Positions 7,686 through 44,700 of a stretch of DNA of 64,000 nt are shown here, piece after piece. The stretch's first letter is position 1; every line of letters begins with the position of its first letter. Source of the stretch: Siphonodentalium dalli (lineage: Eukaryota > Mollusca > Scaphopoda > Gadilida > Siphonodentaliidae); NCBI GenBank assembly GCA_032622095.1, contig CP136065.1, positions 248,929,474 to 248,993,473 of the forward strand. Direction: 5' to 3'. The notes under the pieces are model-generated. The model saw nothing but the letters and a program-made list of their open reading frames with translations. It was not told the DNA's origin and did not search any database. A program made the translations under genes and the position numbers.

Positions 7686-7689
7686 ACGA

Positions 7690-8632: not shown

Positions 8633-8716
8633 ATGAATGAGGGAAATTTATCACGATGTTTATCTGATTTGCGCAATGCAGAAAGCGATAATGAGAAATT
8701 TGCTTCGTTGTTAATG
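8633..8716 (+). CDS. NCDN: neurochondrin coding exon 1 (start codon)
   Basis: Encodes residues 1-28, ATG at 8633 through ATG|GTAAAA at the 5' splice site (GT at 8717), phase 0. The peptide 'LSRCLSDLRNAESDNEKF' matches the conserved N-terminal helix of neurochondrin (vertebrate form: 'LERYLGALREAKNDSEQF'). The N-terminus before it is shorter than in mammals. An in-frame TAG at 8582 supports this ATG as the start. The apparent continuation of the frame to 8881 is intron read-through. Confidence 0.9.
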
Positions 8717-17700: not shown

Positions 17701-20700
17701 TCTATACATTGTTTTCGTGACATCAAATGTTTAATAGATATTAACCACTTCAATGCGTCAATACATCGTTGCTAATTGATATGACGGCAAATACGCAATA
17801 ATATTCGCGATAGTTTATTATAACTGAAGTAAAATAGTGGACCGGACCGGTGAGTACCGGACCGGCGGCAAAAAGCGGTCCGGTCCAGTAACACCCGGAC
17901 CGGACCGCGGTCCACCCCTGGACCGCGGACCGGACCGGTCCAAAGCGGTCCGGTCCGCATCACTACTGTCTACAAGCATTCTCACTGGAATCTTAGAAAG
18001 TATGTAAGTTAACGCTCTGTAACGCTTTGTAACATGTTGCTACACTGAGATGGGAGGTAACAATATGCTGTGGCTTTTTACTGGGGACTTTATATCATTT
18101 GTAACACCTGTCTATGAGTGGTCTCTCTGGAATCTTAGAAATCATGAAACACTCCGTAATGCTTTGTAACATGTCGCTACACTGATATGGGAGAAAACAA
18201 TATGCTGTGGTTTTCTACTGGGGACTTTATATCATTTGTAACATTTGTAACACCCGTCTACGAGTATAAAAGTATAAATATTTCATTCTATGAATGCAAG
18301 ATGTTACATTTTGTTACACTTTTAACATTTGTGACGGTATTACAAAATGCCTAGTGGTGGACAAGTGTACCGGTTTCATACATGTACATGTATCTTTAGA
18401 AGCCTCAATTGTTTTCCTTTTCAGGTGACAAAGATAATCAAGTCGAATGAATGTGACTCATCAACCAGGCGCTCCATTTATGATGCGGTCGGTTTCAAGT
18501 TTCTAGCTCGACTTCTCAAAACAAGTAAATAATACTTAATCCTGTTAGATTGTTAATTTATCTGATTATATATGCTCTCCATTTATGATGCAGTCGGTTT
18601 CATGTTTCTAGCTCAACTTCTCAAAACAAGTAAATAATACTTAATCCTGTTAGATTGTTAATTTATCTGTTTATATATGCTCTCCATTTATGATGCGGTC
18701 GGTTTCAAGTTTCTAGCTCGACTTCTCAAAACAAGTAAATAATACTTAGTCCTGTTAGATTGTTAATTTATCTGTTTATATATGCCAGGGTTTCCGCCAG
18801 GCCGGCTGCGGGTCTGTCACACGGACCCATTCCCCCCGTCGGTCGTTGCATGAAATCCCGTTCATACACAAATAAATGACGTTATTTAAAACTTATTCAG
18901 TCTTGCCTGTGTCGACAGGCTATACATCTACACTTATTTTCATTAATATTGACATATGAAATCGACACAGTCCATCTCCCGAAAAAAACAATAAGAATAG
19001 CATGCAAATACATTGGAGCAAAACATCAAAGGCGGCAAACATCAATGCCATCAGAATAAGCATGCGTCAGCTGCAGACTTATTTCGTCAGCATATCGGTG
19101 CCATAAATGGGTCTGTTTTTGACGTCGCGTTCAGTTCAGCGCAAACTAACCATGAGCCATAAAAAGGGTGAATATAAAAGAAAAATATGACCAGAAGATG
19201 CAAAGGGTTCGGCGTAGATTAGCAATTTTTTTAGACATGAGACTGAAAGCCAGACAGGTATAGATGGTCAAGTTACACATAGTGACAGTTCCATGTTAAG
19301 ATGAATGTGCAGAACCTTGCCTTGGTACTTTAACAAATACGTCGTCTGACAGAACGCAATCAAGTCGACAATGGGGTGATGAATATCAGTGGGCCTTTTA
19401 CAACGCCGCTAAGTCCAGGTGGATATGCCAACTGTGTACGAATTGGCACGGACAAATACCACGGGCACCGGATACCGACCCATGGTGGGTTGATAAAGGC
19501 ATCAGACTAAGCGATCATCCAAGGCGCCAATTTGAAAAACACCAAAATTCATCAGTCCACCGAAATTGTCTAACTACATGTACTAGCATTGACAGAGTAG
19601 CCGCCACTACAGCCGGGTCCGTGATTCAACAACTACAATATGCCTCAGATACCACTCGGGATGAGAACAGGGGAAAGATAGTGGGAATTTTCAAAATTAT
19701 GGAACTGGTTGTGAAACGAAACTGGGCTTATTCTACTTCCCTTCCTGACATTGTATCACTTGTGGAAGATCTCGGTGTGGATTTGAAACTACTGGGAACC
19801 ACTACATATCTTTCACACCAATCTAATGAAGAAATGATAAAATGTATGAGTGAGTACATAGAGGAAACAATGTGGGATGAATGTAAAAGTGCTAGTTTCT
19901 AGAATATCGTAAAGTATATAAATAGTGCATTCGAACAACGAAAGAACTTAGTGTCTAATGCCAACCTCAAGCAGTAACGATTTACCTTATAAACTTACGT
20001 CAGTCGTATAGCCTTGGCATACCACATTACAGTACGTAAATATTTGTTTTATTGTCTATGTGAAATGTGCATGTATATGTTTCATTGTGTCTTATGTTAA
20101 CCATCAATGTTGAAGTTGTGACAATAAAATCTTATCGTATGAAAATTCAAAATTGTCTAGTGGAAAACGAATATCTAAGTTTGCTTTAATTGTGTCTATG
20201 TTAATCATCATCATCATCATCATCATCATAATCATGGAACAAATCTTTCGACTTTTTGTTCCAGTACTAATGAAAATGTATTGGTAAAAAATGTCACAAT
20301 CATAATGGATTTAAATTATGTTGTTATGCTGGTAGAGTTCTGTCATTGACATCGTCATATAGATATCGCCTGTTGTGGAAATATGAATCTATTAACATTT
20401 TAAATTCCTTCAGAGATGGTGTTGCTACTATGTGGTTTGGTAACGCATTCCAGTCTTCTATTTATATATCCTCTGTGTGAAGAAGTATTTCCCATAGTCC
20501 TTTAACACTGTTCGCTTCTGTAACTTCCATTGGTGACCTCTAGTTTTATCGGACAAACTTTTCTGGAATAGTTCATGAGTATCAACGTTGTAGTGGTCAT
20601 TTAAAAACCTGTACACTTCTATTAAGTCTCCCCGGAAACGTCTATACTTCAGGGACATTATGTTTAGTTCGATCATGCGTTCTCTATAACTAAGTTGCTT

Positions 20701-23700
20701 CAGCTGCGGGTACCAGTTTCGTTGCTTTCCTTTGAACCCTTTCGAGAATTATACTCTGGTATTTATGTCGAGGATGCCATGCGGAATTGCCATACTCTAG
20801 CACAGGACGTACCATGCTCACATATAATTGTCTAAATGTGCCCAGATCTAAGTGGGAGAAGGTTCTGTAAATTATTCCAATGATTTTACTTGCTTTGTTG
20901 CAAATTTGATGTATGTGTTCGTCGAATTTGAGTTTGTTATCAATTATAACCCCTAGATCTCTCTCCGAGTGACTAATAAAATGGGAGTTTCTTCATGTGT
21001 GCTTGTATCAATCATGTGGCAGTTTATTTGTAGATTGTTATGCCCAAAATGGATCACGTGAATTTTATCGTTGTTGAATCGGAGTTGCCATTTCTCTGAC
21101 CACTTACACACAGCATTTATTTCTTTTTGGATGTCATCGTGTTGCGGGTTTACTGTAAGTTTCGTGTCATCGGCAAACATTTCACAGAAACAATTTACAC
21201 TATCGGGCAAGTCATTTATGTAGAGTAGAAACAATATTGGGCCAAGAACGCTTCCTTGTGGTACACCACTAGTGACCATTTTCCATTCAGAATACTGATT
21301 TCCTATCCGGACGCGTTGTTGTCTTATTAAAACCCACCCTTTTACAGACAATTGCACAGAATATTGTTTGGGCTTTATATATCTTACGGTGCTATCATTT
21401 TTTATTGCAGAAAAAGTTCCAGAAGACTGCTCACCATACATATATAGGTCAATTGCATTGAGTCTGCTTGTGTGCTTTAGTACAGATCATGATTTGGTGA
21501 GCCATATATATATATAGGTCAATTGTATGGTGAGCCATACATATTTAGGTCAATTGTATGGTGAGCCATACATGTATAGGTCAATTGTATTGAGTCTAAC
21601 AATGTATTCCTTATTCCATTGTTACAACTACATGTATGAGCAAGGTGTGGGGAGATCTTGAGTAAAATCTGAGGTGAGTCGAAATATCAGGGAGGGGGTG
21701 ATGATAATCTAGGTATTTTTTGTTACTGCCTCAGTTTACTTATTATACCCCCCCCCCCCCACACTGATTATACCCCTATTATGTCTCCCATAGCAGAAGA
21801 GGCCATATACAGGTATGGGTTCCAACATTGTCCGCTTGTAACAAATCTTTTCATTGGGAAATTGTAAGACTGACCATAATGGACTAGGTTACAATTTGTG
21901 TATCGTTCAATGATAATTCTCAGAAGCATATTTTGAATATTGATGCTGATCACCCTTAAATGATTAGACCAATTCAAAAACTCTAGGAAACATATTTTCA
22001 CCCCTTATATCAAATTGGCTTATGGAGACATAGGCTCAGATTGAAGTTCCCAAATGGTGAATATTGTGATGTAATTACAACTACTTTCTCTTTCGGTTAA
22101 ATACGTGCATTTGATTGGTCAATTGCCCTTAGATACGCTTGGTAGCGACGATTTCTATCAGCCGAGGGAAATGTCATTTCCCACATCACAACGCGCAGTG
22201 ATACTTTAAGAAATTGGGCAACATGCACGAACGGTCGCCCAACATCATGATGCCATTTCCTAAAAGCGTCCATAGTTACCATACCGTGAAAATTAAATTA
22301 ACGAATTAGACAGATCAGTGAAACTATGAAATGTGATAATTTAGTTGGGGATAAAGGAATGTTTTACATAACTATTCCACCATTAGTATTAGCATTTATC
22401 CAGCTTTGTGTCAATACTAATATGACATGGTAGTGGTCATGAGAGCATAGAATGCACCATTGTAGCGATTGTTTACTTTTCGAGTTTGTCACCGGAGAAC
22501 GCAAATTCGGTGGGGAAATTTGGGAACACTGCTTCAGAATTGCTATCGAATCAGATTGTCTTTATGACAATAGATGTTCTAGAATCGTTTTAAATAAGTG
22601 AAATTTACACCAGCAAGTACAGTTTAATAGTTTACGGTGTGGTGTCTTGCTTTTGTATAGGTTGGAAAGTTGGAAACAGAGATCGAATTGTGTGTGTTCA
22701 TCTCGAACTTCCGGTCAGTCGCCCAATTTATTCTCGACCCGATTTCCCATTTTCCATTAAAAGAGCAACTGAAGTCCAGACACAAATATCACCTGGGTAG
22801 TTTTACTATTTTAGTGTTTTTAATATAGTTTCTTAAAAAAAACTAGTTTAATCACCAACTAATATGCAGATTGTCGTAATTATAAGCAATCAATGTCGTT
22901 TTTAATGCATCTGTCGGCGTATAGAAGTGTCTGATGCTGAATTACTTACTGTATAATTTCGCAAAGAGAAATTATACTAAGTATGTAGTTTGACATCAGA
23001 CACTTCTATACGCTGACAGATGCATCGAAAACGACGTTTATTGCATATGTACACCCATTGGGAATCTTGATTATGCAATGTGTCATCTGCCAATTTGGGG
23101 ATATCGAGAAACTAAACTAAAAAAATAAATAAAATCTGTGTGAAGAGTAGAAATTTTATAATAAAGAAACTTTCAAGAGAAGATGAGGCCTAAGCAGATT
23201 GGGGTCCCCAGCGGGTGTATTTAGTGATGCTAACCCGCTATGAGGGATAGTGTCACTAAATTCACCCTCTGGGGACCTCATTCCTGAAATGACACACACT
23301 AAACTCAGGATTGAATAGCTCTTTTAAAATATCATTGTTTCATCTCTGTTTCTATTCAACATTAGGTAATATGGAAGGTGGAAGTGACAACAACCTCTGA
23401 AGATAATGCATGAAAATGTACAAATCACACCTCTATCACTCACTCACACTCAAATTATAAACTCCCAGTTAATTTTTAGCTCAACTTTAATTTGTAAACA
23501 TTGAGCTATTGCCATGGGTTGGTGTCCATCGTCCATGCACAATATCAAAGTGAAATTTAGATTTCAACATGTATATACTGGAATGGTCTGTTATTAATTT
23601 TGAGGGGTTTTCAGAAAAAAATAAGCAGGGGCGCCGGAAGCATCCAAGGGCAGGGGGGGGCAGAGCCTACAAAAAGGGCACTTTTCCGCAAAAAAGGGCA

Positions 23701-26700
23701 TTTTCTCCGCAAACTCCAGCTGCAAACTCGGGAAAATAACCATAAATTCAATGTGGCAAAAATCCCTATTTTAATGGTATTTGTCGGTTTTCATGGCCGT
23801 TTTGTGATAAAATTGGCAAAAAATTAATATTCCTTGTGAAATTGGTGGTATTTGGACCAAAAAAGTCACATTTTGATATAAAAACACAAGATTAAACGCA
23901 CAAAAAGCATTTTCTGTCTCCAGAAAAAGGGCAAGTCCTGCCCCCCGCTCACCCCCAGGGTGGTCAGCTGCCCCCTCTGCCCCCCCCCCTCTTCCGGCGC
24001 CCCTGAAAATAAGCAGGTGCAACAGAAAATAACAAGTGCAGAAAATACAAGTGCAGAAGTAGTCCTATTTATTGGAGGGAAATGTTCAGATAATAAGTTC
24101 AACAAATTACCTTTGGTCGGTTGTTGAACATAGTATCTGAACATTTCCTAAAGGAACTAATCATCAATGAGTATTTAGTATAGAAATGTGTCCACGCCTT
24201 TTATATTTAGTATAGAAATGTGTCCATGCCTTTTATATTTAGTATAGAAATGTGTCCACGCCTTTAGTATATAAATGTGTCCACGCCTTTTATATTTAGT
24301 ATAGAAATGTGTCCACGCCTTTTATATTTAGTATAGAAATGTGTCCACGCCTTTTATATTTAGTATAGAAATGTGTCCATGCCTTTTATATTTAGTATAG
24401 AAATGTGTCCACGCCTTTTATATTTAGTATAGAAATGTGTCCACGCCTTTTATATTTAGTATAGAAATGTGTCCACTCCTTTTATTATTAGTATAGAAAT
24501 GTGTCCACGCCTTTTATATTTAGTATAGAAATGTGTCCATGCCTTTTATGTCTGCATTTTGTTTGTGATAAGATTTATTTTCAAAAATTTCCAGGCCGGC
24601 CACCAAGATCTGTTGCAGCATATCCCACTATTGAATGAAATCATATCCAGTGAAAAGTGAGTAATATGAAAGTAAGATTCAGAAATGTCACTTAGAACTA
24701 GTACAAATAGTGAATTAACAAATATAAACAATTATGTTGATATTATATTTATGATAAGTATATCCTGAATGCACACAACAAAAACATTAACTGCTAAGAA
24801 TTATATGCAAAAAGTGAAATACCTTCATTTTAACAGACATGATTTTATGGAGCTTTTAACAAGATTGTTCCAAACATCTGGGCATGTCAGTTTGAATGTC
24901 CATTTTCCATGATATCACTGCACCTTGTTGTGCAATACTTTTTTGGGTAAAATTCTATTTGAAACCTCATGGAGGTTTGCACTCCAAATACACCTAATAA
25001 TATTTGCTTTTGAATATTTCCCGGCATCGAAATAGGTCAATAAATACCTGAACTATCTTCCTACGAGCATTATAATTCCCAGAAAGATGCATTGAAGTGA
25101 TAAAAAATACAACTTCAAAATATTGTATGGGCCCCGTACAAATATGGTGCCATTTGTATTCATCAGAGTTCTGGAATCAGAAATGGAACGTCGGAAAGGT
25201 TATATTTGTATTATCTTAACATGAAACTATTAAAAAAATACTTCGCTCACCGCTTTCTCTTCATTTTAATCATCAAAATTATGTTGTGCCTTTGACGACA
25301 ACATTAGATATTCTTCCCATAGTCTACAATTGCAATGTTTATGCAACCGCTGAATAAAAAAAAGGAACCGGCTCAAATGAAATGATCTCAACATTATCGA
25401 AAAATCTAAGAAACAAAACACGTATTTTCAGTGCTATATCGACAAAAAATTGTTCGAAAAAAAATCTTCCACGTATATATGCTATGCTTTGTTATACTTC
25501 TTTCCAAATTAGGATAAATAAGTAAAAATCTCTCATCACTGAAATGTTCTCTAAAAAAGCCTCGTCGCGAACATTTTTATTAATATTTTCTATTAGAAAT
25601 ATTTTATTTACACAAAGAAAAATGAATTATTTTTTATTTCTGAAGTATGTTTTCCAGATATTGAGACAAAAATAAAAATGATTAGCCACCCCTCCCTCAT
25701 CCCAAAGTTGAAAACACAGATATTTTATTTTAATGGCCTTGTGTATACATAATTTTGGAGTTGGAATGAGCCATGTCTATTTAAATAAGAAGCATCACCA
25801 AGGTTGCACATGATGTAACACTTACTGTATCACTCTCTTGGCAGCACTGAAGAACAAGAGATGCACTGTCTCAAGGATGATGCATATGAACTGTTAACTA
25901 ACATCACTCTAACATCGTCGGGTCTCAGGTCATTATCAGAGCAGAAGACACCAACCGTTCTTACAGAAATATATACTAATCAGATACATGGTAAGCTGTT
26001 AACTAACATCACTCTAACACCGTCGGGTCTCAGGTCATTATCAGAGCAGAAGACACCAACCGTTCTTACAGAAATATATACTAATCAGATACATGGTAAG
26101 CTGTTAACTAATATCACACTAACATCGTTGGGTCTCAGGTCATTATCAGAGCAGAAGACGCCAACCGTTCTTACAGAAATATATACTAATCAGATACATG
26201 GTAAGCTGTTAACTAATATCACTCTAACACCGTCGGGTCTCAGGTCATTATCAGAACAGAAGACGCCAACCGTTCTTACAGAAATATATACTAATCAGAT
26301 ACATGGTAAGCTGTTAACTAATATCACACTAACATCGTTGGGTCTCAGGTCATTATCAGAGCAGAAGACGCCAACCGTTCTTACAGAAATATATACTAAT
26401 CAGATACATGGTAAGCTGTTAACTAACATCACTCTAACACCGTCGGGTCTCAGGTCATTATCAGAGCAGAAGACACCAACCGTTCTTACAGAAATATATA
26501 CTAATCAGATACATGGTAAGCTGTTAACTAATATCACTCTAACACCGTCGGGTCTCAGGTCATTATCAGAGCAGAAGACGCCAACCGTTCTTACAGAAAT
26601 ATATACTAATCAGATACATGGTAAGCTGTTAACTAACATCACTCTAACACCGTCGGGTCTCAGGTCATTATCAGAGCAGAAGACGCCAACCGTTCTTACA

Positions 26701-29700
26701 GAAATATATACTAATCAGATACATGGTAAGCTGTTAACTAATATCACTCTAACACCGTCGGGTCTCAGGTCATTATCAGAGCAGAAGACGCCAACCGTTC
26801 TTACAGAAATATATACTAATCAGATACATGGTAAGCTGTTAACTAATATCACACTAACATCGTTGGGTCTCAGGTCATTATCAGAACAGAAGACGCCAAC
26901 CGTTCTTACAGAAATATATACTTATCAGTAAGCTGTTAACTAATATCACACTAACATCGTTGGGTCTCAGGTCATTATCAGAACAGAAGACACCAACCGT
27001 TCTTACAGAAATATATACTAATCAGATACATGGTAAGTTGTTAACTAACATCACTCTAACACCGTCGGGTCTCAGGTCATTATCAGAGCAGAAGACACCA
27101 ACCGTTCTTACAGAAATATATACTAATCAGATACATGGTAAGCTGTTAACTAATATCACACTAACATCGTTGGGTCTCAGGTCATTATCAGAACAGAAGA
27201 CGCCAACCGTTCTTACAGAAATATATACTTATCAGTAAGCTGTTAACTAATATCACACTAACATCGTTGGGTCTCAGGTCATTATCAGAACAGAAGACAC
27301 CAACCGTTCTTACAGAAATATATACTAATCAGATACATGGTAAGTTGTTAACTAACATCACTCTAACACCGTCGGGTCTCAGGTCATTATCAGAGCAGAA
27401 GACGCCAACCGTTCTTACAGAAATATATACTAATCAGATACATGGTAAGCTGTTAACTAATATCACACTAACATCGTTGGGTCTCAGGTCATTATCAGAA
27501 CAGAAGACACCAACCGTTCTTACAGAAATATATACTTATCAGTAAGCTGTTAACTAATATCACACTAACATCGTTGGGTCTCAGGTCATTATCAGAACAG
27601 AAGACACCAACCGTTCTTACAGAAATATATACTAATCAGATACATGGTAAGCTGTTAACTAATATCACACTAACACCGTCGGGTCTCAGGTCATTATCAG
27701 AGCAGAAGACACCAACCGTTCTTACAGAAATATATACTAATCAGATACATGGTAAGCTGTTAACTAACATCACTCTAACACCGTCGGGTCTCAGGTCATT
27801 ATCAGAGCAGAAGACGCCAACCGTTCTTACAGAAATATATACTAATCAGATACATGGTAAGCTGTTAACTAACATCACTCTAACACCGTCGGGTCTCAGG
27901 TCATTATCAGAGCAGAAGACACCAACCGTTCTTACAGAAATATATACTAATCAGATACATGGTAAGCTGTTAACTAACATCACTCTAACACCGTCGGGTC
28001 TCAGGTCATTAATAGAGCAGAAGACGCCAACCGTTCTTACAGAAATATATACTAATCAGATACATGGTAAGCTGTTAACTAACATCACTCTAACACCGTC
28101 GGGTCTCAGGTCATTATCAGAGCAGAAGACGCCAACCGTTCTTACAGAAATATATACTAATCAGATACATGGTAAGCTGTTAACTAACATCACTCTAACA
28201 CCGTCGGGTCTCAGGTCATTATCAGAGCAGAAGACACCAACCGTTCTTACAGAAATATATACTAATCAGATACATGGTAAGCTGTTAACTAACATCACTC
28301 TAACACCGTCGGGTCTCAGGTCATTATCAGAGCAGAAGACGCCAACCGTTCTTACATAAATATATACTAATCAGATACATGGTAAGCTGTTAACTAACAT
28401 CACTCTAACACCGTCGGGTCTCAGGTCATTATCAGAACAGAAGACGCCAACCGTTCTTACAGAAATATATACTTATCAGTAAGCTGTTAACTAATATCAC
28501 ACTAACATCGTTGGGTCTCAGGTCATTATCAGAACAGAAGACACCAACCGTTCTTACAGAAATATATACTAATCAGATACATGGTAAGTTGTTAACTAAC
28601 ATCACTCTAACACCGTCGGGTCTCAGGTCATTATCAGAGCAGAAGACGCCAACCGTTCTTACAGAAATATATACTAATCAGATACATGGTAAGCTGTTAA
28701 CTAATATCACACTAACATCGTTGGGTCTCAGGTCATTATCAGAACAGAAGACACCAACCGTTCTTACAGAAATATATACTTATCAGTAAGCTGTTAACTA
28801 ATATCACACTAACATCGTTGGGTCTCAGGTCATTATCAGAACAGAAGACACCAACCGTTCTTACAGAAATATATACTAATCAGATACATGGTAAGCTGTT
28901 AACTAATATCACACTAACACCGTCGGGTCTCAGGTCATTATCAGAGCAGAAGACACCAACCGTTCTTACAGAAATATATACTAATCAGATACATGGTAAG
29001 CTGTTAACTAACATCACTCTAACACCGTCGGGTCTCAGGTCATTATCAGAGCAGAAGACGCCAACCGTTCTTACAGAAATATATACTAATCAGATACATG
29101 GTAAGCTGTTAACTAACATCACTCTAACACCGTCGGGTCTCAGGTCATTATCAGAGCAGAAGACACCAACCGTTCTTACAGAAATATATACTAATCAGAT
29201 ACATGGTAAGCTGTTAACTAACATCACTCTAACACCGTCGGGTCTCAGGTCATTAATAGAGCAGAAGACGCCAACCGTTCTTACAGAAATATATACTAAT
29301 CAGATACATGGTAAGCTGTTAACTAACATCACTCTAACACCGTCGGGTCTCAGGTCATTATCAGAGCAGAAGACGCCAACCGTTCTTACAGAAATATATA
29401 CTAATCAGATACATGGTAAGCTGTTAACTAACATCACTCTAACACCGTCGGGTCTCAGGTCATTATCAGAGCAGAAGACACCAACCGTTCTTACAGAAAT
29501 ATATACTAATCAGATACATGGTAAGCTGTTAACTAACATCACTCTAACACCGTCGGGTCTCAGGTCATTATCAGAGCAGAAGACGCCAACCGTTCTTACA
29601 TAAATATATACTAATCAGATACATGGTAAGCTGTTAACTAACATCACTCTAACACCGTCGGGTCTCAGGTCATTATCAGAGCAGAAGACGCCAACCGTTC

Positions 29701-32700
29701 TTACAGAAATATATACTAATCAGATACATGGTAAGCTGTTAACTAACATCACTCTAACACCGTCGGGTCTCAGATCATTATCAGAGCAGAAGACACCAAC
29801 CGTTCTTACAGAAATATATACTAATCAGATACATGGTAAGCTGTTAACTAACATCACTCTAACACCGTCGGGTCTCAGGTCATTATCAGAGCAGAAGACG
29901 CCAACCGTTCTTACAGAAATATATACTAATCAGATACATGGTAAGCTGTTAACTAACATCACTCTAACACCGTCGGGTCTCAGATCATTATCAGAGCAGA
30001 AGACACCAACCGTTCTTACAGAAATATATACTAATCAGATACATGGTAAGCTGTTAACTAACATCACTCTAACACCGTCGGGTCTCAGGTCATTATCAGA
30101 GCAGAAGACGCCAACCGTTCTTACAGAAATATATACTAATCAGATACATGGTAAGCTGTTAACTAACATCACTCTAACACCGTCGGGTCTCAGATCATTA
30201 TCAGAGCAGAAGACACCAACCGTTCTTACAGAAATATATACTAATCAGATACATGGTAAGCTGTTAACTAATATCACACTAACATCGTTGGGTCTCAGGT
30301 CATTATCAGAACAGAAGACGCCAACCGTTCTTACAGAAATATATACTTATCAGTAAGCTGTTAACTAATATCACACTAACAGAAGACACCAACTGCAAAT
30401 TTCACAATTTTGCATAACCTATTTTTCGTTTGCCTGGTTTGTGCCTTGGTAACCCAATGTAACTAATGTATGGGTTTTAGTGAGATCTGGGGATATTGTG
30501 AGCAGCATTTGCTTACTTTAGGCTTGAAATGTTTTTCGCCAAAAGTTTGACCAAAAGAAATTTTCCTTGACCTTTTTCGGAAAAAAATCTAGCTATTGAC
30601 CAATTCAGCCGCCGGTAGTGTGAAAGCTGGTTGTCCTACATAGTTATGCACACATATCTCCTTAACCCTTTCAGTGCCAGGTCCGATTTTTGTATCAACC
30701 CATATACCCTGTGCCAATGCATTCTCTTATATATGTGAGTCGACCATAGGTCGCCTCGCATATATAAGAGAATGCATTGGCCTAACAATTTTTCATCATT
30801 TGTTATTATTTTTTACAATTTTTTACAATTTTAATAATTTTTTCTTATATTCTTTAACAGACTTATTTTGTAGGTTTAGTGCCAGGGAATCTTACGTTTT
30901 TCATGGGCATCAAAATTATTACTATGAATACTTGGTGATAGTTATAACATGCCCCTAAGGTTTTATCCAGTTTGTTTTTTAAATTCGCTATAGCATGCTT
31001 AAGCATACCCAAAACAAAATTCAACCCAAACAAATCTAAAAAAAACATTTTAATTTATTTTTTATTTTTTTATTTTTTTAGGGCCGATTTTACAGACTGT
31101 AAATTAGGGCTGATGAGATCGGCCCCCTGGCACTGAAAGTGTTAAGACCCTGCAAATATGCAGATTTGTAATCTGATATCGATCGGGGAGCTGATGTCGA
31201 CATCAAACTGAATCATAAATCGAATCCCAAATCGTATCCGCTAACCGCCAGTGCTGAATGTAGGTCTTCGAAGTCAGTCCCAATTTTATACCTATACGGT
31301 ATCAGGGAAATAGCAGGCTAGCATCACTAAATTCACCCTCTGGGGACCTCATTCTGGTTAGGCCTCATCTTCTCTGGAAATTTCTTTATTATCAAATTTC
31401 AAAAGAAACTTCATCACATAGATTCTATTTCATTTTTAGTTTAGTTTCTCTATATCCCCAAATTGGCAGACGACACATTGCATAATCGAGGTTCCCAATG
31501 GGAGTACATCACAATATTCACTATTTGTGAACTTCAATCTGAGTCTATGTCTCCCATAGCATATGAAGCCGTAGTGAATGGGGTCCCCAGAGGGTGAATT
31601 TACTAATGCTAGCCCACTATGCGGGATAGAATCACTAAATTCACCTTCTGGGGCCCTCATTCTGCAAATTACAGGCACACTATATCCAGACTTGAGCCTG
31701 TCATATGATATGTCTATTACCTCTAAATTCATTTTCTCAAAATTTTCAGATTGGCAGAAAGCCAAAAATCTATTACTAAGGATTACTTCATTGTGTGATC
31801 GAGACATATGGGGAAACAATGAACAGGGTATTCATTTGTTACTTACCTATCTGGCAGAAAACTTCAAGAAGAATTCATTACCAGACAAGTTGGATATGTG
31901 CTTTGAGATTTCTCAGATCATATCATCATTAAGGATGGACAGAACGGAGAGTGATATTCCACCGTGGTTACATTTATTAGTGAGTGAGGTATGTGGTCTC
32001 CTACAGAACAGACTCGCTGCGGAACAGAGAGCGACGTTACTCCAGTTAGCGTCTGTGATAATTGACTCTACGGGCATCAACTGCTTCTTGCCTCCAAATG
32101 TCTCTGATAAGAAGATGTTACTGCTGATAATCCATCTTGTTTGTATCGACACACGGTTGATTCTAGAGAATACACCATTAGCAGAAGTGAGCATTATAGA
32201 TTTTAACCTCATATCAAATACAAAATACTGGACTTGATCTGTCAAATAAATAGCAGATAGAACGACACAAGTGTGTGAACTGGTTAACGTTATTGTAAAA
32301 TGAGATCCAGAGTTTCGTGTTTTACCTCGCGGCACGACAAATGAGTGCAATAACGTTAACATGTTCACAAAACTGTATTGTTCTATGTTTATTGCACACT
32401 CTGAAGATTGTATTGTACTGCTTTAACCCTTTACCCAACAGAAGGGCCCTGTGCCAATGCATTCTCTTATATATGCGAGTCGACCATAGGTCGCCTCGCA
32501 TATATAAGAGTATGCATTGGCTTAACACATTAAAAATTATAAAATTGTTAAAGAATGTAAGAAAAAATGGTAAAAAGTGTTTAAAAAAGATTTTTTTTAG
32601 GCCAATGCATTCTCTTATATATGCGAGGCGACCTATGGTCGACTCGCATATATAAGAGAATGCATTGGCACAGGGCATAACTGTAACTATCACAATGTGG

Positions 32701-35700
32701 TCAAGGAGCCGGTTCCAATGATATCCATATTTGTATGGTTCTATTGAGACAGACCGAAGATATTTTAGGCTGTTGAAGCTTTATTTGGCCGGTTTTGGCC
32801 GGTTTGTTGGGTAAAGGGTTAAGTAATTGACCCAGTAACTGGGCTAATATGCGTTTATAACTGCGGAAAAACCATAACTGCACCTTAATTAACTGTTCCA
32901 TTACTTGGTGGCACAGCGATTAAATGCTGTAAATAAACCCCTGTTATATTCCTTGACTGCCGATACACTGTAGCTAACTGTTGATTGTCAGCAAATTTTA
33001 TTTTTATGACATGTTTAATTTTGTTGGGGCCGCAATTATACTTGAAGTTAGCGTTTCATACCAGTTGATGATTACATGGATTTTAACAACACAATTCTCT
33101 GGTTGTCTTAGGGTTTCTTCTAATGTCTAATTGAAATTCAGTTTAACTGAGGGGCCACCATGGTTTGATGAGTTATTTACTTAGGGCAGTACAGTAGCTT
33201 GTAATATACTAAAATTTAGGTTGCTATGGTGTTATTTAATTAAACAAATGTGTGATTTATGTAGACTATACTTCATAAGTTAGTCAGGATATTTTCTGTT
33301 AAAGTTGAAGTCGCCACTGACGATGTCAACGTAATCTGTTTGTATTCTTCAAGGACAAGACATTATTTATTTAACTTTTTGAAATCTTTGGTATTTTTGC
33401 CAAAATAAAACCAACGGGTGTGTTATAGATACATAGACGACATGTGTGTTAAAGGTAATAAATCCGATTTGATGGTCCCCATATCATCAGATTCCAACAA
33501 AAACATTTTTTAAATGCGGCTTCAGTTATCAGAATCGATTAATTGCCCAAAAATAATGCTGACCGCAGTCAACTCATTATTCGCCCAAAACCTGTTACTT
33601 ATCAACATTTTGGTCAACTATATTTTGCCGGTTTGTCAAATATCTGACACAAAAAAGCCACTTGATTTTAGAGTTATCCATCTTCATCCTCAATTTGGTC
33701 AGAGAAATTCCTCTCGTCGACTGTTTACTGGGCCACTTAAAATTAAAATAATAGATTTCAAACATCGATATCTGATCACTCTGAGCTTTGATGGATGGGT
33801 TCCTTGACTCGAATCAAATATTTTTTACCCCCGAAGCCAAGGAAATAGTAATTTGCGAGCATTAATTTGGATTGAGTACCTTTAATGGGTTTGTTTATAT
33901 GGCACGAGTGTTAGCGTGGACAGATCGAGTTCTATCATTCCTCGATGGCACAAGTGTCGTTATTTGTTTATTACACATCACCTGTCCTAGAATCTGTGCT
34001 TTAAAAAATACAGGCTTACAAGGTTTATTTAGGCACATACAGGGCTTGTTTTTTCATGTGTGATAATGCTTTTATTTTATAGTTTAGGTTTCATGGTTGA
34101 TTATTACAGATACCCGGGAAGATGAATCTGTTAGTGATATACTACAGTCTGTTAGAGAACACTATACAATACATGATTCAAGAGACACCACTCCAGCTCG
34201 AGAAGAAACAGATTGTTCAACTGCATTCAGCGATGTGTGGTGCATTTAATGCTGTTATTTTCTTCTTATCTGAATGTTCAGCCGATGAATCTGTGCAGGT
34301 TAGTCTCGCATCCATTAGCGCAGGGTTTCCACTTGGGGTTGGGGGAGTGGGACCCCCAGGTCTGATATATTTTGTCAAATTTACCAAATAGCAAATAGAC
34401 GACGTCCCAGGGCTCATTTCCACAAATCTAAACGGATTTCAAAGATATTTGGTATATGAGTTCACCTGACCATTACCTAGAACGAGTTCGCAAGCCAGTT
34501 CTGGCCAGATATTTTTACCGGAGTTATTGGACTTTGTTTATTATTTTTGTTGAATTTACCAAATAGCTAATAGACGACGTCCCAGGGCTCATTTCCACAA
34601 ATCTCAACGGATTTTAAAGATATTTGGTATATGAGTTCACCTGACCATTACCTAGAATGAGTTCGCAACCCAGGTCTGGCCAGATATTTTTACAGGAGTT
34701 ATTGGACTTTGTTTATTATTTTTGTCGAATTTACCAAATAGCAAATAGACGATGTCCCAGGGCTCATTTCCACAAATCTCAATGGATTTCAAAGATATTT
34801 GGTATATGAGTTCCCATGACCAGTACCAAAAATGAGTTCGCAAGCCAGGCTTTTTGACAAAATCCCACCTCTTGTTTAGCGCATACTGAGAATGTAAACA
34901 TTATTGAGAATGCACTTCACCAACTGCACAATTCGGCGAGGGATACCGCCGTCTGCGACTGCTTGTTTTTTTTAATTTTGATGTAAACTTGTTTTTCCTG
35001 GTGGCTTATCCGTCAAATTATGTTTTGAAGACCCATAAATCAGTCAATTTTGATCAAATTGGACAGTCTAAATCCCCTTGTAATATATAATATAAGATAC
35101 TGGACAATCTAAATCACCTTGTATTATTTAATATTGGATACTGGACAATCTAAATCACCTTGTATTATTTAATATAGGATACTGGACAATCTAAATCACC
35201 TTGTATTATTTAATATAGGATACTGGACAATCTAAATCACCTTGTATTATTTAATATATGATACTGCTTCAATATCTAGATCTGTCCATGACCATTTATG
35301 TTAGGAAGAATAAATTATTAAAAATTGAATTCACCCTCCCACCCTAGATTTCTGAAAACGTTTGATGAAAATCTAGCAATTTATTTATATTGGCCTAATG
35401 GAAGTTTGGTTGTATTTCAGCTTCAATCATCAGCTGTCATTGCTTCTGTTCGAGTTCTTGGGTCCTGGTTAGCAGAAGAAACAACAGCACTGAAAGAAGA
35501 AATCTATAACGTTCTACCCTATGTTATGAAAGTGTGGTGAGTGAACAATAGACTGAAGAAATCTATAACATTATACCCTATGTTATGAAAGTGTGGTGAG
35601 TGAACATTGGACTATAACATCATACCCTCAGTCAGTAAAGTGTGGTGAGTGAACAATAGACTGAACATTTTACCATATGCTATGAAAGTGTGGTGAGTGA

Positions 35701-38700
35701 ACAATAGACTATAACATTATACCGTATGTTATGAAAGTGTGGTGAGTGAACAATAGACTATAACATCATACCCTATGTTATGAAAGTGTGGTTAGTGAAC
35801 AATAGACTATAACATCATACCCTATGTTATGAAAGTGTGGTTAGTGAACAATGGACTATAACATACCACATGTTATGAAAGTGTGGTGAGTGAACAATGG
35901 ACTATAACATCATACCCTATGTTATGAAAGTGTGGTTAGTGAACAATAGACTATAACATCATACCCTCAGTCAGTAAAGTGTGGTGAGTGAACAATAGAC
36001 TGAACATTTTACCATATGTTATGAAAGTGTGGTGAGTGAACAATAGACTATAACATTATACCCTATGTTATGAAAGTTGTTAGTGAACAATGGACTATAA
36101 CATCATACCCTATGTTATGAAAGTGTGGTGAGTGAACAATAGACTATAACATCATACCCTATGTTATGAAAGTGTGGTGAGTGAACAATAGACTATAACA
36201 TCATACCCTATGTTATGAAAGTGTGGTGAGTGAACAATGGACTATAACATCATACCCTATGTTATGAAAGTGTGGTGAGTGAACAATAGACTATAACATC
36301 ATACCCTATGTTATGAAAGTGTGGTGAGTGAACAATAGACTGAAGAAATCTATAACATCATACCCTATGTTATGTTATGAAAGTGTGGTGAGTGAACAAT
36401 AGACTATAATATCATACCCTATGTTATGAAAGTGGTGAGTGAACAATGGACTATAACATCATACCCTATGTTATGAAAGTGTGGTGAGTGAACAATAGAC
36501 TGAAGAAATCTATAACGTTCTACCCAATGTTATGAAAGTGTGGTGAGTGAACAATAGACTGAAGAAATATATAACATCACACCCTATGTTATGAAAGTGT
36601 GGTGAGTGAACAATAGACTGAAGAAATCTATAACGTTCTACCCAATGTTATGAAAGTGTGGTGAGTGAACAATAGACTATAACATCACACCCTATGTTAT
36701 GAAAGTGTGGTGAGTGAACAATAGACTATAACATCACACCCTATGTTATGAAAGTGTGGTGAGTGAACAATAGACTGAAGAAATCTATAACATCATACCC
36801 TATGTTATGAAAGTGTGGCGAGTGAACAATAGACTGAAGAAATCTATAAAATCATACCCTATGTTATGAAAGTGTGGTGAGTGAACAATAGACTATAACA
36901 TCATACCCTATGTTATGAAAGTGTGGTGAGTGAACAATAGACTGAAGAAATCTATAACATCATACCCTATGTTATGAAAGTGTGGTGAGTGAACAATAGA
37001 CTGAAGAAATATATAACATCACACCCTATGTTATGAAAGTGTGGTGAGTGAACAATAGACTGAAGAAATCTATAACATCATACCCTATGTTATGAAAGTG
37101 TGGCGAGTGAACAATAGACTATAACATCACACCCTATGTTATGAAAGTGTGGTGAGTGAACAATAGACTGAAGAAATCTATAACATCATACCCTATGTTA
37201 TGAAAGTGTGGCGAGTGAACAATAGACTATAACATCACACCCTATGTTATGAAAGTGTGGTGAGTGAACAATAGACTATAACATCACACCCTATGTTATG
37301 AAAGTGTGGTGAGTGAACAATAGACTGAAGAAATCTATAACATCATACCCTATGTTATGAAAGTGTGGTGAGTGAACAATAGACTGAAGAAATATATAAC
37401 ATCACACCCTATGTTATGAAAGTGTGGTGAGTGAACAATAGACTGAAGAAATCTATAACGTTCTACCCAATGTTATGAAAGTGTGGTGAGTGAACAATAG
37501 ACTATAACATCACACCCTATGTTATGAAAGTGTGGTGAGTGAACAATAGACTATAACATCACACCCTATGTTATGAAAGTGTGGTGAGTGAACAATAGAC
37601 TGAAGAAATCTATAACATCATACCCTATGTTATGAAAGTGTGGTGAGTGAACAATAGACTGAAGAAATATATAACATCACACCCTATGTTATGAAAGTGT
37701 GGTGAGTGAACAATAGACTGAAGAAATCTATAACATCATACCCAATGTTATGAAAGTGTGGTGAGTGAACAATGGACTATAGCATCATACCCAATGTTTT
37801 GAAAGTGTGGTGAGTGAACAATAGACTGAAGAAATCTATAATATCATACCCTATATTATGAAAGTGTGGTGAGTGAACAATAGACTATAACATCACACCC
37901 TATGTTATGAAAGTGTGGCGAGTGAACAATAGACTATAACATCATACCCTATGTTATGAAAGTGTGGTGAGTGAACAATAGACTATAACATTATACCCTA
38001 TGTTATGAAAGTGTGGTGAGTGAACAATAGACTTAAGAAATCTATAACATCATACCCTATGTTATGAAAGTGTGGTGAGTGAACAATGGACTATAACATC
38101 ATACCCTATGTTATGAAAGTGTGGTGAGTGAACAATAGACTGAAGAAATCTATAACATCATACCCTATGTTATGAAAGTGTGGTGAGTGAACAATAGACT
38201 GAAGAAATATATAACATCACACCCTATGTTATGAAAGTGTGGTGAGTGAACAATAGACTGAAGAAATCTATAACATCATACCCTATGTTATGAAAGTGTG
38301 GCGAGTGAACAATAGACTATAACATCACACCCTATGTTATGAAAGTGTGGTGAGTGAACAATAGACTGAAGAAATCTATAACATCATACCCTATGTTATG
38401 AAAGTGTGGCGAGTGAACAATAGACTATAACATCACACCCTATGTTATGAAAGTGTGGTGAGTGAACAATAGACTATAACATCACACCCTATGTTATGAA
38501 AGTGTGGTGAGTGAACAATAGACTGAAGAAATCTATAACATCATACCCTATGTTATGAAAGTGTGGTGAGTGAACAATAGACTGAAGAAATATATAACAT
38601 CACACCCTATGTTATGAAAGTGTGGTGAGTGAACAATAGACTGAAGAAATCTATAACGTTCTACCCAATGTTATGAAAGTGTGGTGAGTGAACAATAGAC

Positions 38701-41700
38701 TATAACATCACACCCTATGTTATGAAAGTGTGGTGAGTGAACAATAGACTATAACATCACACCCTATGTTATGAAAGTGTGGTGAGTGAACAATAGACTG
38801 AAGAAATCTATAACATCATACCCTATGTTATGAAAGTGTGGTGAGTGAACAATAGACTGAAGAAATATATAACATCACACCCTATGTTATGAAAGTGTGG
38901 TGAGTGAACAATAGACTGAAGAAATCTATAACATCATACCCAATGTTATGAAAGTGTGGTGAGTGAACAATGGACTATAGCATCATACCCAATGTTTTGA
39001 AAGTGTGGTGAGTGAACAATAGACTGAAGAAATCTATAATATCATACCCTATATTATGAAAGTGTGGTGAGTGAACAATAGACTATAACATCACACCCTA
39101 TGTTATGAAAGTGTGGCGAGTGAACAATAGACTATAACATCATACCCTATGTTATGAAAGTGTGGTGAGTGAACAATAGACTGAAGAAATCTATAACATT
39201 ATACCCTATGTTATGAAAGTGTGGTGAGTGAACAATAGACTATAACATCATACCCTATGTTATGAAAGTGTGGTGAGTGAACAATAGACTATAACATCAT
39301 ACCCTATGTTATGAAAGTGTGGTGAGTGAACAATAGACTATAACATTATACCCTATGTTATGAAAGTGTGGTGAGTGAACAATAGACTTAAGAAATCTAT
39401 AACATCATACCCTATGTTATGAAAGTGTGGTGAGTGAACAATGGACTATAACATCATACCCTATGTTATGAAAGTGTGGTGAGTGAACAATGGACTATAA
39501 CATCATACCCTATGTTATGAAAGTGTGGTGAGTGAACAATAAACTGTAACATTATACCATGTGTTATGAAAGTGTGGTGAGTGAACAATAGACTGAACAT
39601 TATACCCTATGTTATGAAAGTGTGGTGAGTGAACAATGGACTATAACATCATACCCTATGTTATGAAAGTCTGGTGAGTGAACAATAGACTGAAGAAATC
39701 TATAACATCATACCCTATGTTATGAAAGTGTGGTGATTGAACAATGGACTATAACATCATGCCCTATGTTATGAAAGTGTGGTGAGTGAACAATAGACTA
39801 TAACATTATACCCTATGTTATGAAAGTGTGGTGAGTGAACAATAGACTGAAGAAATCTATAACATTATACCCAGGCCTGGCATTCTGAGGCGAGCGATAA
39901 AATCGCTCGCCTACCGCCCGCCTGAAAATAATCCAGGCGGACGAAATAACGCCCTCCCAAACGGCAAAACATCGCTCTCCAGGACCCGGGTGTAAGTAAT
40001 GATCTATGTACTAACAGAGTCGGCAACGAAGTGTTAAACGATGTCGGTATGGGACCTTTGATCTATAAGCCGCATTCCGACTGTCCCTGGCGAAATGTAC
40101 AAGCGATATTGATTACGTTGTAGCAATATTTCCACCGGAAGCACGTGCCTCTGTGAAATAGACACACCGTTCAGTGTTATGTCACTTTGAAGTATTGCGT
40201 CATGCCTCCCACGCAACTGGACAGTGCTATATAATGTCAGGCATCATTGAGGCATTGTTATGAGGCAATGTAAAAAGAATAGTTGTCTGAATTGTTACTA
40301 ATTACATTACTAGCTAAAGTAACAACATATCTTGTTATTTAATATTAAAATATTTTGTGTAATGAAAACAACAAACTCAGCAATTATTGTAATAGTTTAA
40401 TACTGACATGTACTTTATTTTTATCAATACTGTACATGTGGAGTGGAATATTTACTATGTCTGATTTTGGCAAACATTTTCGCCCTCATGTGCTCGGCAC
40501 AAATAATAGCCCTCCTAGACCTTTTCAGGAGGGCGATTTTTAGCTCTCCTAGATTTCTGAGAATGCCAGGCCTGTATACCCAATGTTATGAAAGTGTGGT
40601 GAGTGAACAATAGACTATAACATTATACCCTATGTTATGTTATGAAAGTGTGGTGAGTGAACAATGGACTATAACATCATACCCTATGTTATGAAAGTGT
40701 AGTGAGTGAACAATAGACTGAAGAAATATATGACATTATACCCTATGTTATGAAAGTGTGGTGAGTGAACAATAGACTGAACAATTGTGCTTGTGCTGTA
40801 TAAAAATAGAGTATGGGAAGGTTAACCCTTCCATGACTGGAGCTTCCTGTAGGGAGCCCCATACATGTGGCAGCTTGTTTAGCTGAGTGTCGTCTGCTCA
40901 CGTTTGAGATGCTCCATATGGGTAGCTTAATCCTTCCATGACTGGAGCTTCCTGAAATTTTGCGAAAACCCTGTGCCAATGCATTCTCTTATATATGCAA
41001 GTCTCCCATAAGGAGCCTGGCATATAGAATAGAATACATTGGCCTAACAATATTTACCTTGACCTTGTAAGCCAGTGAATAATAAGGTATATAACTACTC
41101 ATCAAAGAGTATTTAGTATTGAGCATGTTAAAGACATATGTGACCCGCCATATCAAATCCAGTCGTAAGTCGGGATTTTTTTACCCTGTGCCAATGCATT
41201 CTCTTATATATGCGAGTCGACCATAGGTCGCCTTGCATATATAAGAGAATGCATTGGCCTAACAATTTTTTATCATTTTTTAAAAATAAATGTTTCTTAC
41301 AATTTTTAGGACATAAAATAAAAAACATCCATTACCCTGCAGGGAGCCCCACACATATATAGAAGCATATAGAAGAGTGTCGTCTGCTCATGTTTGTCTG
41401 GGGCTCTGTATGGGTGAAATTTTAAATAAAATTGTTCAAGAATACAAGAAAAAATTATTAAAATTGTAAAAAATTGTTAGGCCAATGCATTCTCTTATAT
41501 ATGCGAGGCGACCTATGGTCGACTCGCATATATAAGAGAATGCATTGGCACAGGGTAAAAAAATCGCGACTTACGACTGGATTTGATATGGCGGGTCACA
41601 TATCATATGCTTTCATTATATGCTTGCTTATAAAATATCGGAAAATGCCGAAATGTAGATCGTCTTATATATCTCTTTGAAGCTACAGTGAAATACGATT

Positions 41701-44700
41701 TTATTATTATTGTAGCTATTGTTATTTTCACTGTTGTGTGAAACCCTCACCAAAGCTTAGTCCAGAGCTAATTTACTGGACGAGTTTTGTAAATTCCACT
41801 ATAAACTGGGGACAAGTCGTAGATCCTCTATATATATGATAGAATGACGTTGTGTGTTGGAAATTTTGATACAAAATTACATGAACTCCTTGTTTATATA
41901 ATTATATTTGCCGATACCTTGGAAACCGCTGCTTCTGCTTTTACGACATCCAAATTTTTCTCAACATGCATAATTGTCCAAGCTTCTATTTATACATTTT
42001 CTGGTCAGTTTGTTTGATACTTGACACTCATAGGCGAACCTGTGCGCCTACGATTATGAGCTCGATCCGACTTTTGTTTATGGAGTTTTTCCCATTTTTG
42101 ACCCCCGAAATATTTTTTTCCGGGGACTATTAAAATAGCCGGTGTCCGTGCGTCCGTACGTGTGTCCAGAAATGGTTTCCGGATGATAACTTTAGTTCGG
42201 TTATTAGATCAAAAGCAAATTTCATAGGTGAGTTTATCAGACCAAAATACAGGTCAAGTTCGAATATGGTTTTGCTCTGCCCATTTTTGCGAGAGTTGTG
42301 GCCCTTTTTCGACTTGGAATCCTGTCAATTTCTGGTTTCTGGATGATAACTTCAGTTTGTGTGATCATATCTGAACCAAATTTGGAATGGTTGTTTATCA
42401 GCCCAAAATACAGGTCAGGTTCGAATATGGGTTTGCTCTGCCCATTTGTGTGAGAGTTATGGGCCTTTTACGACTTAGAATCCTGTTAATTTCTGGTTTC
42501 CGGATGATAACTTTAGTTTGTGTGATCATATCTGAATCAAATTTGTTATATGAGTTCATCAGCTCGAAATACAGATCAAGTTCGAATATGGGTACGATCC
42601 ACCCATTTTCATCTGGTTGCTTCGGATTTAAGATCCTTGTTATTTTTTTCAGAAAAGCTGATGTCCCCAATGAAGCCCCTTTTTCGGGGGACACTGTGGC
42701 CGGATGGCCTTTTATTTCAATTAGAAATTTTTCTAAACATGCACCTCTAAATTTTTTTGCTGTTCCTTTGAGAAGTTCTCTATTTGTCCCCCGAAAAATT
42801 TATTTTCGGGGGACTATAGAAACGGGGTCCGTCCGTCCGTCCGTCCGTTGAGCCGTCCGTCCGTCCGTCACACTTTTGAGTACCTTCATGGTGTAATCAT
42901 CTCCTCCTACAGATTTCATCCCAGAGATTTGAAACTTCAGAATATTGTTGCCCATATATTGAAGATGTGCATCATGTATATAGATAACGGATTTTATTTT
43001 TTTTGGACAGAGTTATTAACCCTTTTCGACTTAGAAAAATTTCAACATTTTTTATAATTTTCAGTATCAGGGTACCTTCATGGTGTAATCAACTCCTCCT
43101 ACAGTTTTGATTGTAGATATTTGAAACTTCAGAGTATTGTTATCCACATATTGGAGATGTGCAACATGTATATAGAGTACGGAAAAATTATTTTTTTATG
43201 GAGTTATTAACCCTTTCAACATTTAAAAAAAAATTCTTTAACAAAGCGGCATTGACTTGCCACTTTTTCGGGGGACACTGTGGTCAGCTGACCTTTTATT
43301 CATCTTTCTTTTAGCCAAAGATCCATGAAAGACCATTCATCTAAACAGATCCCTTCACAAGAAGAACATTCATCACCATCTTCACTGAAAGAAGGGGAAG
43401 CTGATGTACATTCTGAAAATGGAGATCTCCCAATGCAGAGTGATGCGAATGAGCTGAATGGCCAAACGGACACTGGTGGTCAACCACCCCCTCTACCACA
43501 TTATAACATAAGCAATATCAATGTTCTAAGATTTCTGCTTCCTGGGTTGTGTCACTTGACATGTGAGGACAAACCTAGATCAATTCTGCTGACGGAGAGA
43601 GTCCATTCTTTGGTCATAGATTATTTTCATTTACTCTGGAAGGATTTTGTGGAAAATGGAGATGAGAGTGTCTGTGTAAGTTGTGTATTTCTGCACTGTT
43701 TGACAACATAAATTTAATTCCGTCTAGATTTTTTTCCTTTATGTTTGTAAACCAATTTATTAACTTGCTGTGACCATAATACCTACTTTTATCTACCATT
43801 TCCTATGAAGATAAAATTGGCGATAACGAATTGGCGATAAAAACATCTTTATCATTACTGCAGTTGTGTGTGATACAAGGCACACATGACGTCATTGACT
43901 GGTTCAAAATCATGAATGAACTGACGTCACATCAATCGCGTGAAAAATCGACATTCCGACGTATATTCTTGCTTACTATAAACAAATAGTTCCTAGGTTT
44001 TAGCATTATTTGATTGCCTACCATCATGGATATTATGGTATAACATATCACAAAGTAACAAATATGTATTTGTTGAGTATTTATTATACATTATATAAAA
44101 CACGCAGGTGTAAGAGATTTTGTCCATCGAATTGAATTTCAGTTAGGCATATTCGCGTGAACTTGCAGGTTGAGAGAATTTAGCAAAGCAAGGTAATCAC
44201 GTGACACACAAATCCAACAATTTTGGCATTTACGAAACTTCTAAAATGTAATTTGTGTGGTGGATTCTGTCACACCAATGGTAGATAAACGTGTTATATA
44301 CACAATGTGTTTGCAATGATTCATGTATCGTGACTCGGCTAGTTTTCGTGACCACAGAGCCACTCAGCGACCAAGGTCGCCTCGTCGCTATATGGCCATG
44401 AAAACTAGCCTCGTCGCGATACCTGAATCGATACAAACACATTGTGTATATAACACATATTTATTCCCGATTTATTAAAGATTTCATTGATTTATTTTAT
44501 TGGTGATGTTTGAACAATCATCCTATTCCAAATCATTCAGTAAACAGTACTTTAAGTATTCAAATATTTTTGCTACTTTCGAATCAAGTGAATACAGAGT
44601 ATGATTCTTAATAAGTGATGATGATTCAGCCAAACATATATTATCACAAATATCAATGTAATACACACAGGCTGAACAGTGTTATTTTTATTATATTGTC

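Follow-up and report, generated by a model that had tools for sequence, protein, structure and literature searches.

Tandem arrays across exon-intron junctions of a neurochondrin gene in the scaphopod Siphonodentalium dalli

The neurochondrin gene and its donor arrays

The window analysed here is a stretch of 64,000 nucleotides from Siphonodentalium dalli (contig CP136065.1, here C5, positions 248,929,474 to 248,993,473), taken from a genome of 2.23 Gb in nine contigs of 190-301 Mb. A PF05536 profile search of the genome contigs identified its plus-strand gene as neurochondrin (NCDN), with five exon matches above the cut-off. The exons without a family match were identified by eye, each bounded by a splice site on either side, with the human protein for guidance; exons 3 and 5 were assigned by comparison with human NCDN. 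The resulting model has 14 coding exons, giving 14 donors and 13 acceptors, and its transcript ends are provisional (Table 1).

Exons 2, 3, 5 and 8 are each followed, in the next intron, by tandem copies of their own 3' end together with the 5' splice site, and in all four arrays copy 1 is the authentic exon edge. The arrays were defined by Tandem Repeats Finder (TRF), by direct reading of the sequence and by self-BLAST around each exon. They occur at 4 of the 14 modelled donors and at none of the 13 acceptors, where the self-BLAST found no comparable array; a 17-base match touching exon 12 has its partner more than 500 bp away. An earlier note made from the sequence had reported the arrays at exons 2, 5 and 8, each beginning with the real exon, and TRF and reading bear this out (3 copies, 44 copies including the exon and a partial last one, and 86 donor-like sites, respectively). 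Its description of three cases, all at donors, stands in that NCDN has no comparable acceptor array, but a fourth, smaller case at exon 3 had been missed.

The exon-2 unit is about half exon and half intron, the last 52-53 bases of the exon forming copy 1. At exon 3, TRF reports a 31-bp period with 3.0 copies at 21495-21590, and self-BLAST gives 93.75% identity over 32 bp. The exon-5 unit consists of 100 exon and 5 intron bases; 37 of its copies are 105 bp long, six are 97 bp and one is 33 bp. They comprise 17 distinct sequences that recur in blocks, forming higher-order repeats of about 11 copies, a pattern typical of minisatellite growth. The recurring 97-bp variant is shifted in frame and keeps the GTAAG splice signal found in the exon-5 copies. 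The donor-like sites of the exon-8 array read GTGAGT (74 of 86), GCGAGT (7), GTTAGT (4) and GTGATT (1). An inserted element splits this array; TATACC is found on both of its flanks, and that part of the array is therefore older than the insertion.

Among the best candidates scored in searches of the genome, the exon-5 unit had 18 matches, all inside its own array, and the exon-2 array had one, at its own place. The two units searched thus look local, and an origin from a dispersed satellite is unsupported. The arrays at 24172, 35060 and 58159 are ordinary minisatellites in which no exon sequence was found on reading, as the earlier note had said; the first of them (24172-24549) ends 45 bp upstream of exon 4.

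Table 1. Coding exons of NCDN, exon-edge arrays and an inserted element, in window positions
Feature	Position	Strand	Basis or detail
NCDN first coding exon, without array	8633..8716	+	self-BLAST, read by eye
NCDN exon 2	18425..18524	+	PF05536 30-64; cag/GTGACA ... AAACAA/gtaaat
Array at exon 2 donor, 105-bp unit x3.0	18472..18785	+	TRF 96% matches; self-BLAST
NCDN exon 3	21411..21496	+	gcag/AAAAAG ... GATTTG/gtgagc
Array at exon 3 donor, exon piece and GGTGAG repeated in intron	21434..21597 (end approximate)	+	TRF, self-BLAST
NCDN exon 4, without exon-derived array	24595..24656	+	TRF, sequence, self-BLAST
NCDN exon 5	25845..25990	+	ggcag/CACTGA ... TACATG/gtaagc
Array at exon 5 donor, 105-bp unit	25891..30390	+	TRF 42.9 copies, 95%; copy typing
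NCDN exon 6, without array	31750..32186	+	PF05536 162-303
NCDN exon 7, without array	34110..34298	+	PF05536 304-375
NCDN exon 8	35421..35536	+	PF05536 369-405; ttcag/CTTCAA ... AGTGTG/gtgagt
Array at exon 8 donor, 49/59-bp units, split by insertion	35504..40781	+	TRF, donor count, self-BLAST, sequence
Inserted element in exon 8 array, inverted ends CAGGCCTGGCATTCT ... AGAATGCCAGGCCTG, TATACC both sides	39872..40574		sequence read
NCDN exon 9, without array	43315..43675	+	PF05536 424-467
NCDN exon 10, without exon-derived array	44965..45088	+	self-BLAST, read by eye
NCDN exon 11, without array	53014..53097	+	self-BLAST, read by eye
NCDN exon 12, without array	55456..55623	+	self-BLAST, read by eye
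NCDN exon 13, without array	57256..57354	+	self-BLAST, read by eye
NCDN exon 14, without array	60846..60963	+	self-BLAST, read by eye

Exon-edge arrays in four other gene families

The genome sample draws on four gene families, whose exons were matched across all nine contigs; 203 of 291 matches were kept (PF00118, 42 of 53; PF01602, 28 of 30; PF00225, 112 of 123; PF00063, 21 of 85). The 88 matches dropped were, in the first three families, additional copies of an exon already taken, weak matches and long ones in a single frame; the PF00063 choice avoided paralogue clusters and limited the amount of sequence. Many similar myosin exon matches lie at G000:C4:274219458-275508405, probably a cluster of paralogues. 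Each sampled exon was fetched with about 600 bp per side, giving 187 stretches (labelled L...) and 273,962 letters. The classes of TRF arrays, with a score of at least 50 and a period of at least 15, were based on how they overlap the matched interval and not on called splice sites. Donor positions of the array-bearing exons were set by eye, and those of the others, used for the AG/GT count only, with a splice matrix.

TRF placed 76 arrays outside exons and 1 inside a matched interval; 14 others straddled donors and 7 lay at acceptors. Base-by-base reading of whole arrays or of their first copies showed that all 14 donor arrays begin within the exon and repeat the exon end with the donor, and that copy 1 is the exon in each. 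Of the acceptor arrays, four hold exon sequence (one only 6 bases), and three that stop at or just past the acceptor (L112, L145, L167) were excluded from the count as having almost none. By TRF, therefore, 14 of the 203 donors have an exon-edge array, as do 4 of the 203 acceptors. The locus-specific instability suggested by the earlier note is rejected, because the same arrays occur in other genes on several contigs.

BLAST self-comparison of 182 of the 203 exons yielded further diverged pairs, kept outside the main counts, which add roughly two donors (L113, L136) and six acceptors (L069, L106, L130, L134, L145b, L159); since they add more acceptors, the donor bias is weaker among older duplications. 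On inspection the pairs in L029, L116, L117 and L160 were considered weak or scattered; those in L088 and L121, with weak extra ones in L143 and L145, also stand outside the counts. One array, in L023, has two different left junctions at a single donor, as though this exon edge had been duplicated on two separate occasions. The exon-2 array of NCDN (at 18786) and the array in L087 (at position 1041, sense strand) both end exactly where a sequence beginning CAGGGTTTCCGC starts. This sequence may be one end of a mobile element and is present, too, in L044, L133 and L149, where no donor array was counted.

The number of arrays expected at exon edges was estimated as the chance that a random intronic point falls in an array's first unit. 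Since array copies cannot accumulate freely within an exon, its edge can be straddled only by the seed unit. On this model 3.74, 4.31 or, with the window's own array-rich background, 5.38 donor arrays were expected among the 203 exons, against the 14 observed (P = 4e-5 for 3.74 and 0.0014 for 5.38). Ten donor arrays have at least 2.5 copies (0.90, 0.90 or 2.85 expected) and eight have at least 94% identity (0.78, 1.08 or 1.13 expected). A detectability bias, in which a constrained copy 1 keeps old arrays visible for longer, was considered and rejected, as the excess grew on restriction to at least 94% identity. At acceptors, the 4 arrays compare with 3.74 expected unfiltered, or 2.55 if 25 intron bases are needed. 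Three of them are young (at least 94% identity; 0.78 or 0.46 expected) and three are multi-copy (0.90 or 0.54 expected), so that acceptors too exceed expectation in these classes. The four arrays at 14 donors in NCDN exceed the sampled donor rate (binomial P = 0.013), but the window was picked for its arrays.

Origin of the arrays

The ratio of 14 donor to 4 acceptor arrays departs from equal odds (P = 0.031), and the units at the two kinds of edge differ in the intron sequence they carry. All 14 donor units hold at least 5 intron bases (median 13.5), which suffices for copy 1 to retain the donor core. Nine acceptor units, four from TRF and five from diverged BLAST-only pairs, have a median of 48 intron bases (Mann-Whitney P = 0.0045), a larger part, which would follow if splicing needs a pyrimidine tract within the last copy itself. 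The junctions of the duplications were examined in two-copy arrays with at least 92% identity and a period of at least 25 (n = 11: ten intronic arrays and, from the donors, that of L174; the other three donor arrays of two copies are older and lie outside this set). Array length minus two periods ranged from -3 to +4 in ten of them and was +20 in one; this little end homology fits fill-in at DNA breaks.

We consider, with a probability of about 0.66, that these are exon-edge minisatellites of the kind called 'mirages' in amphioxus, in which an ordinary tandem duplication straddles an exon edge and is kept where splicing tolerates it. A stretch of about 30-105 bp would be duplicated in tandem at the DNA level, with little or no need for homology, and would by chance span an exon-intron junction. 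At a donor, copy 1 retains an intact exon with the first 5 intron bases or more; the first donor would thus stay in use, and the later copies, most with a donor of their own, would be intron. The intronic copies may then grow by slippage or unequal exchange, a route to which the copy variants and higher-order repeats point. Duplications within exons would mostly be purged and those at acceptors would tend to survive when the unit carries more intron, and donors would therefore dominate. The counts also suggest, without settling it, that exon edges are hit more often than introns.

Several results weigh against this explanation. Three acceptor units have short intron parts of 14, 20 and 24 bases, and the filter is therefore not strict. 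After allowing for the filter, the difference between donors and acceptors is not significant (P = 0.087), and the diverged BLAST-only pairs narrow it. One TRF array (L157, 31 bp x2.0) lies inside a matched exon interval, and use of the first array donor is itself a prediction from sequence. Array coverage is flat with distance from exons, at 13, 14, 16, 10, 10 and 10 of 171 flanks in successive downstream 100-bp bins and 6, 8, 14, 10, 11 and 10 of 171 in upstream bins; the excess therefore rests on the seed-unit argument, and a reader who doubts it will see no excess. Cut-offs were, moreover, chosen after the data had been seen. Genome-wide octamer counts had no clear outcome: three AGGTAAGT at 30-60 bp spacing gave 2268 matches (1222 + 1046) against 2417 (1515 + 902) for the reversed octamer. 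Many of the roughly 100 matches listed for each overlap one another within satellites; among them, 9 and 11 separate arrays, respectively, were recognised by eye over the first 85 Mb of C1. Taken singly, the two octamers have 14 and 37 occurrences in 338 kb. The pattern search also met a large satellite at G000:C1:231991190-232058398, with units of about 26/52 bp containing GGTAAGT.

The other proposal of the earlier note was a mechanism linked to donors. The excess of donor arrays over acceptor arrays and over the intronic expectation agrees with it; acceptors are nevertheless affected and in excess too, and the asymmetry largely fits splicing tolerance. That the 3' edges of exons at donors are real germline hotspots of tandem duplication, at about 3-4 fold over introns when all arrays are counted and as much as about 10 fold among young or multi-copy ones, with duplication ends clustered in the first 17 intron bases, is less likely than not, and we hold it only tentatively. 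A little more doubtful still is the specific proposal that a process linked to the 5' splice site (polymerase pausing, R-loops or U1-bound nascent RNA) makes paired nicks or breaks in the DNA close to donors, which repair then turns into tandem duplications. The excess of young and multi-copy donor arrays and the two left junctions in L023 speak for such hotspots. The best hint of a donor-linked process is the clustering of the right ends of units within 17 bases of the donor, which the splicing filter does not predict: the unit's right end lies there in 9 of the 14 sampled arrays (5.2 expected, P = 0.025), or in 12 of 18 with NCDN included (6.0 expected, P = 0.002). This comparison, however, assumes uniform breakpoints, its 17-base cut was picked post hoc, and TRF may shift array starts slightly to the left. 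The flat coverage around exons and the acceptor arrays, 3 against 0.5-0.9 expected among the young or multi-copy ones, also argue against hotspots at donors.

Selection for the arrays, whose extra donors might serve as spares or as U1-binding sites shielding long introns from premature 3' processing, appears improbable. None of the 37 full-length exon-5 copies has lost GGTAAG, the 29 bases at the end of that unit are invariant whereas 11 of the 76 other positions vary, and the 97-bp copies still read AGTAAG. Homogenisation accounts for invariant stretches, however; 12 of the 86 exon-8 donor hexamers differ from GTGAGT, and arrays at acceptors would not serve a donor role. It is very unlikely that downstream donors are used to add repeats to the protein, even though the exon-5 unit equals 35 codons, the exon and first copies lie within a 370-codon open frame (25819-26931), and periods are multiples of three in 8 of 14 sampled donor arrays (P = 0.085) against 23 of 76 intronic ones. 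Stops arise in the exon-5 array from the 97-bp copies and from a substitution in two copies, and the exon-2 and exon-8 units have stops just past the donor; a coding role is thus rejected for exons 2 and 8 and unlikely for exon 5. Copy numbers of long arrays are often wrong in assemblies, and an amphioxus mirage was misassembled in the draft genome (PMC3087553). We give an assembly artefact equally little credence here, as many separate loci carry arrays, the two-copy cases L010, L022, L067 and L174 fit within single reads, and the long arrays show distinct copy variants and, at exon 8, an inserted element. Intron gain based on AGGT was also considered and found no support, since AG/GT is not in excess: it occurs at 6 of 18 array donors, read by eye, against 59 of 118 other called donors, where calling favours AG.

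Known systems and side observations

Minisatellites of the mirage kind were reportedly described by Canestro et al. in 2002 in Adh3 of amphioxus. Tandem repeats spanning exon-intron boundaries are documented under that name in Adh3 and in two globin genes, one at an acceptor and one at a donor (PMC3087553), with further cases in PGBD5 and troponin C (PMC3902484). Splicing seems to be normal, to judge from the Adh3 data and from globin reverse transcription-PCR (RT-PCR), and array length is variable; the globin authors regard the mechanism as unclear and the phenomenon as perhaps general in cephalochordates (PMC3087553). The present arrays are alike in that the unit spans the exon-intron boundary, the authentic exon edge is the terminal copy and many copies carry splice signals. 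Donors and acceptors are both affected, here at 14 and 4 sites by TRF, with none at NCDN acceptors. Thus the arrays are not a previously unrecorded phenomenon; the kind is already known, and it is common in the present genome. They differ from the amphioxus reports in reaching 86 donor-like sites and in having a sampled frequency, 14 of 203 donors, and they come from the DNA of one assembly. The host assembly, of the size and contig number given above, is also unlike that of Branchiostoma, which has about 0.5 Gb and 19-20 chromosomes. A family search for mollusc haemocyanin had no hit in this genome, but as the controls yielded none either, the absence says little. A genome-wide frequency of mirages was not found in the literature searched, which did not cover the original Adh3 paper.

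The human IFI6 (6-16) minisatellite (Turri et al. 1995) likewise follows an exon and offers several donors, its 12-base unit reportedly resembling the donor consensus. Two of its downstream repeat units are used as donors (PMC4526556), whereas the present arrays are seen at the DNA level alone. In the Rogers model, duplications crossing an intron-exon boundary can create new introns (PMC4974935). The starting event is the same, a tandem duplication across a boundary, but a new intron is formed there, whereas here none was seen and the extra copies lie inside the old intron; most of the array donors also lack the AG/GT that this type of gain requires of its unit (6 of 18 have it). The polyubiquitin gene UBC contains an array of dual-specific AGGT splice sites (PMC10809524) and so resembles the present arrays in having a splice site in every tandem unit, but UBC units are coding and serve as donor and acceptor, whereas the copies here are intronic and AG/GT is the minority form. 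Small tandem duplications arise by fill-in at Cas9-made breaks through CST and DNA polymerase alpha-primase (PMC8355091), a comparable route to short duplications; the abstract of that study draws no link to exon edges.

What is new here is the size of the arrays, their sampled frequency in a genome unlike a lancelet's, and the finding that donor and acceptor units carry different amounts of intron. If the sampled rate of about 7% of donors with exon-derived arrays holds, tandem duplication continually supplies spare donors beside real ones. It would then offer a natural test of how the spliceosome chooses the first donor in a long row of identical ones, and new exons and introns could arise from it. 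Mirages would turn from a peculiarity of lancelets into a class of mutation that can be measured, with a prediction for the intron length that a surviving unit must carry. Should donor edges instead prove to be hotspots, the arrays would be a footprint of transcription or splicing on DNA mutation, and mirages would be expected to be widespread beyond lancelets, feeding intron growth and new splice sites.

Elsewhere in the window, a hairpin-like element (GTGCCAATGCATTCTCTTATATATGCGAG...) was recognised by eye, scattered in introns at about 30705-30785, 32446-32530, 32600-32690, 41185-41255, 53500-53575 and 55065-55140. Open frames on the minus strand at 6978-7691 and 20458-21486 are presumably fragments of retrotransposon reverse transcriptases, which they resemble.

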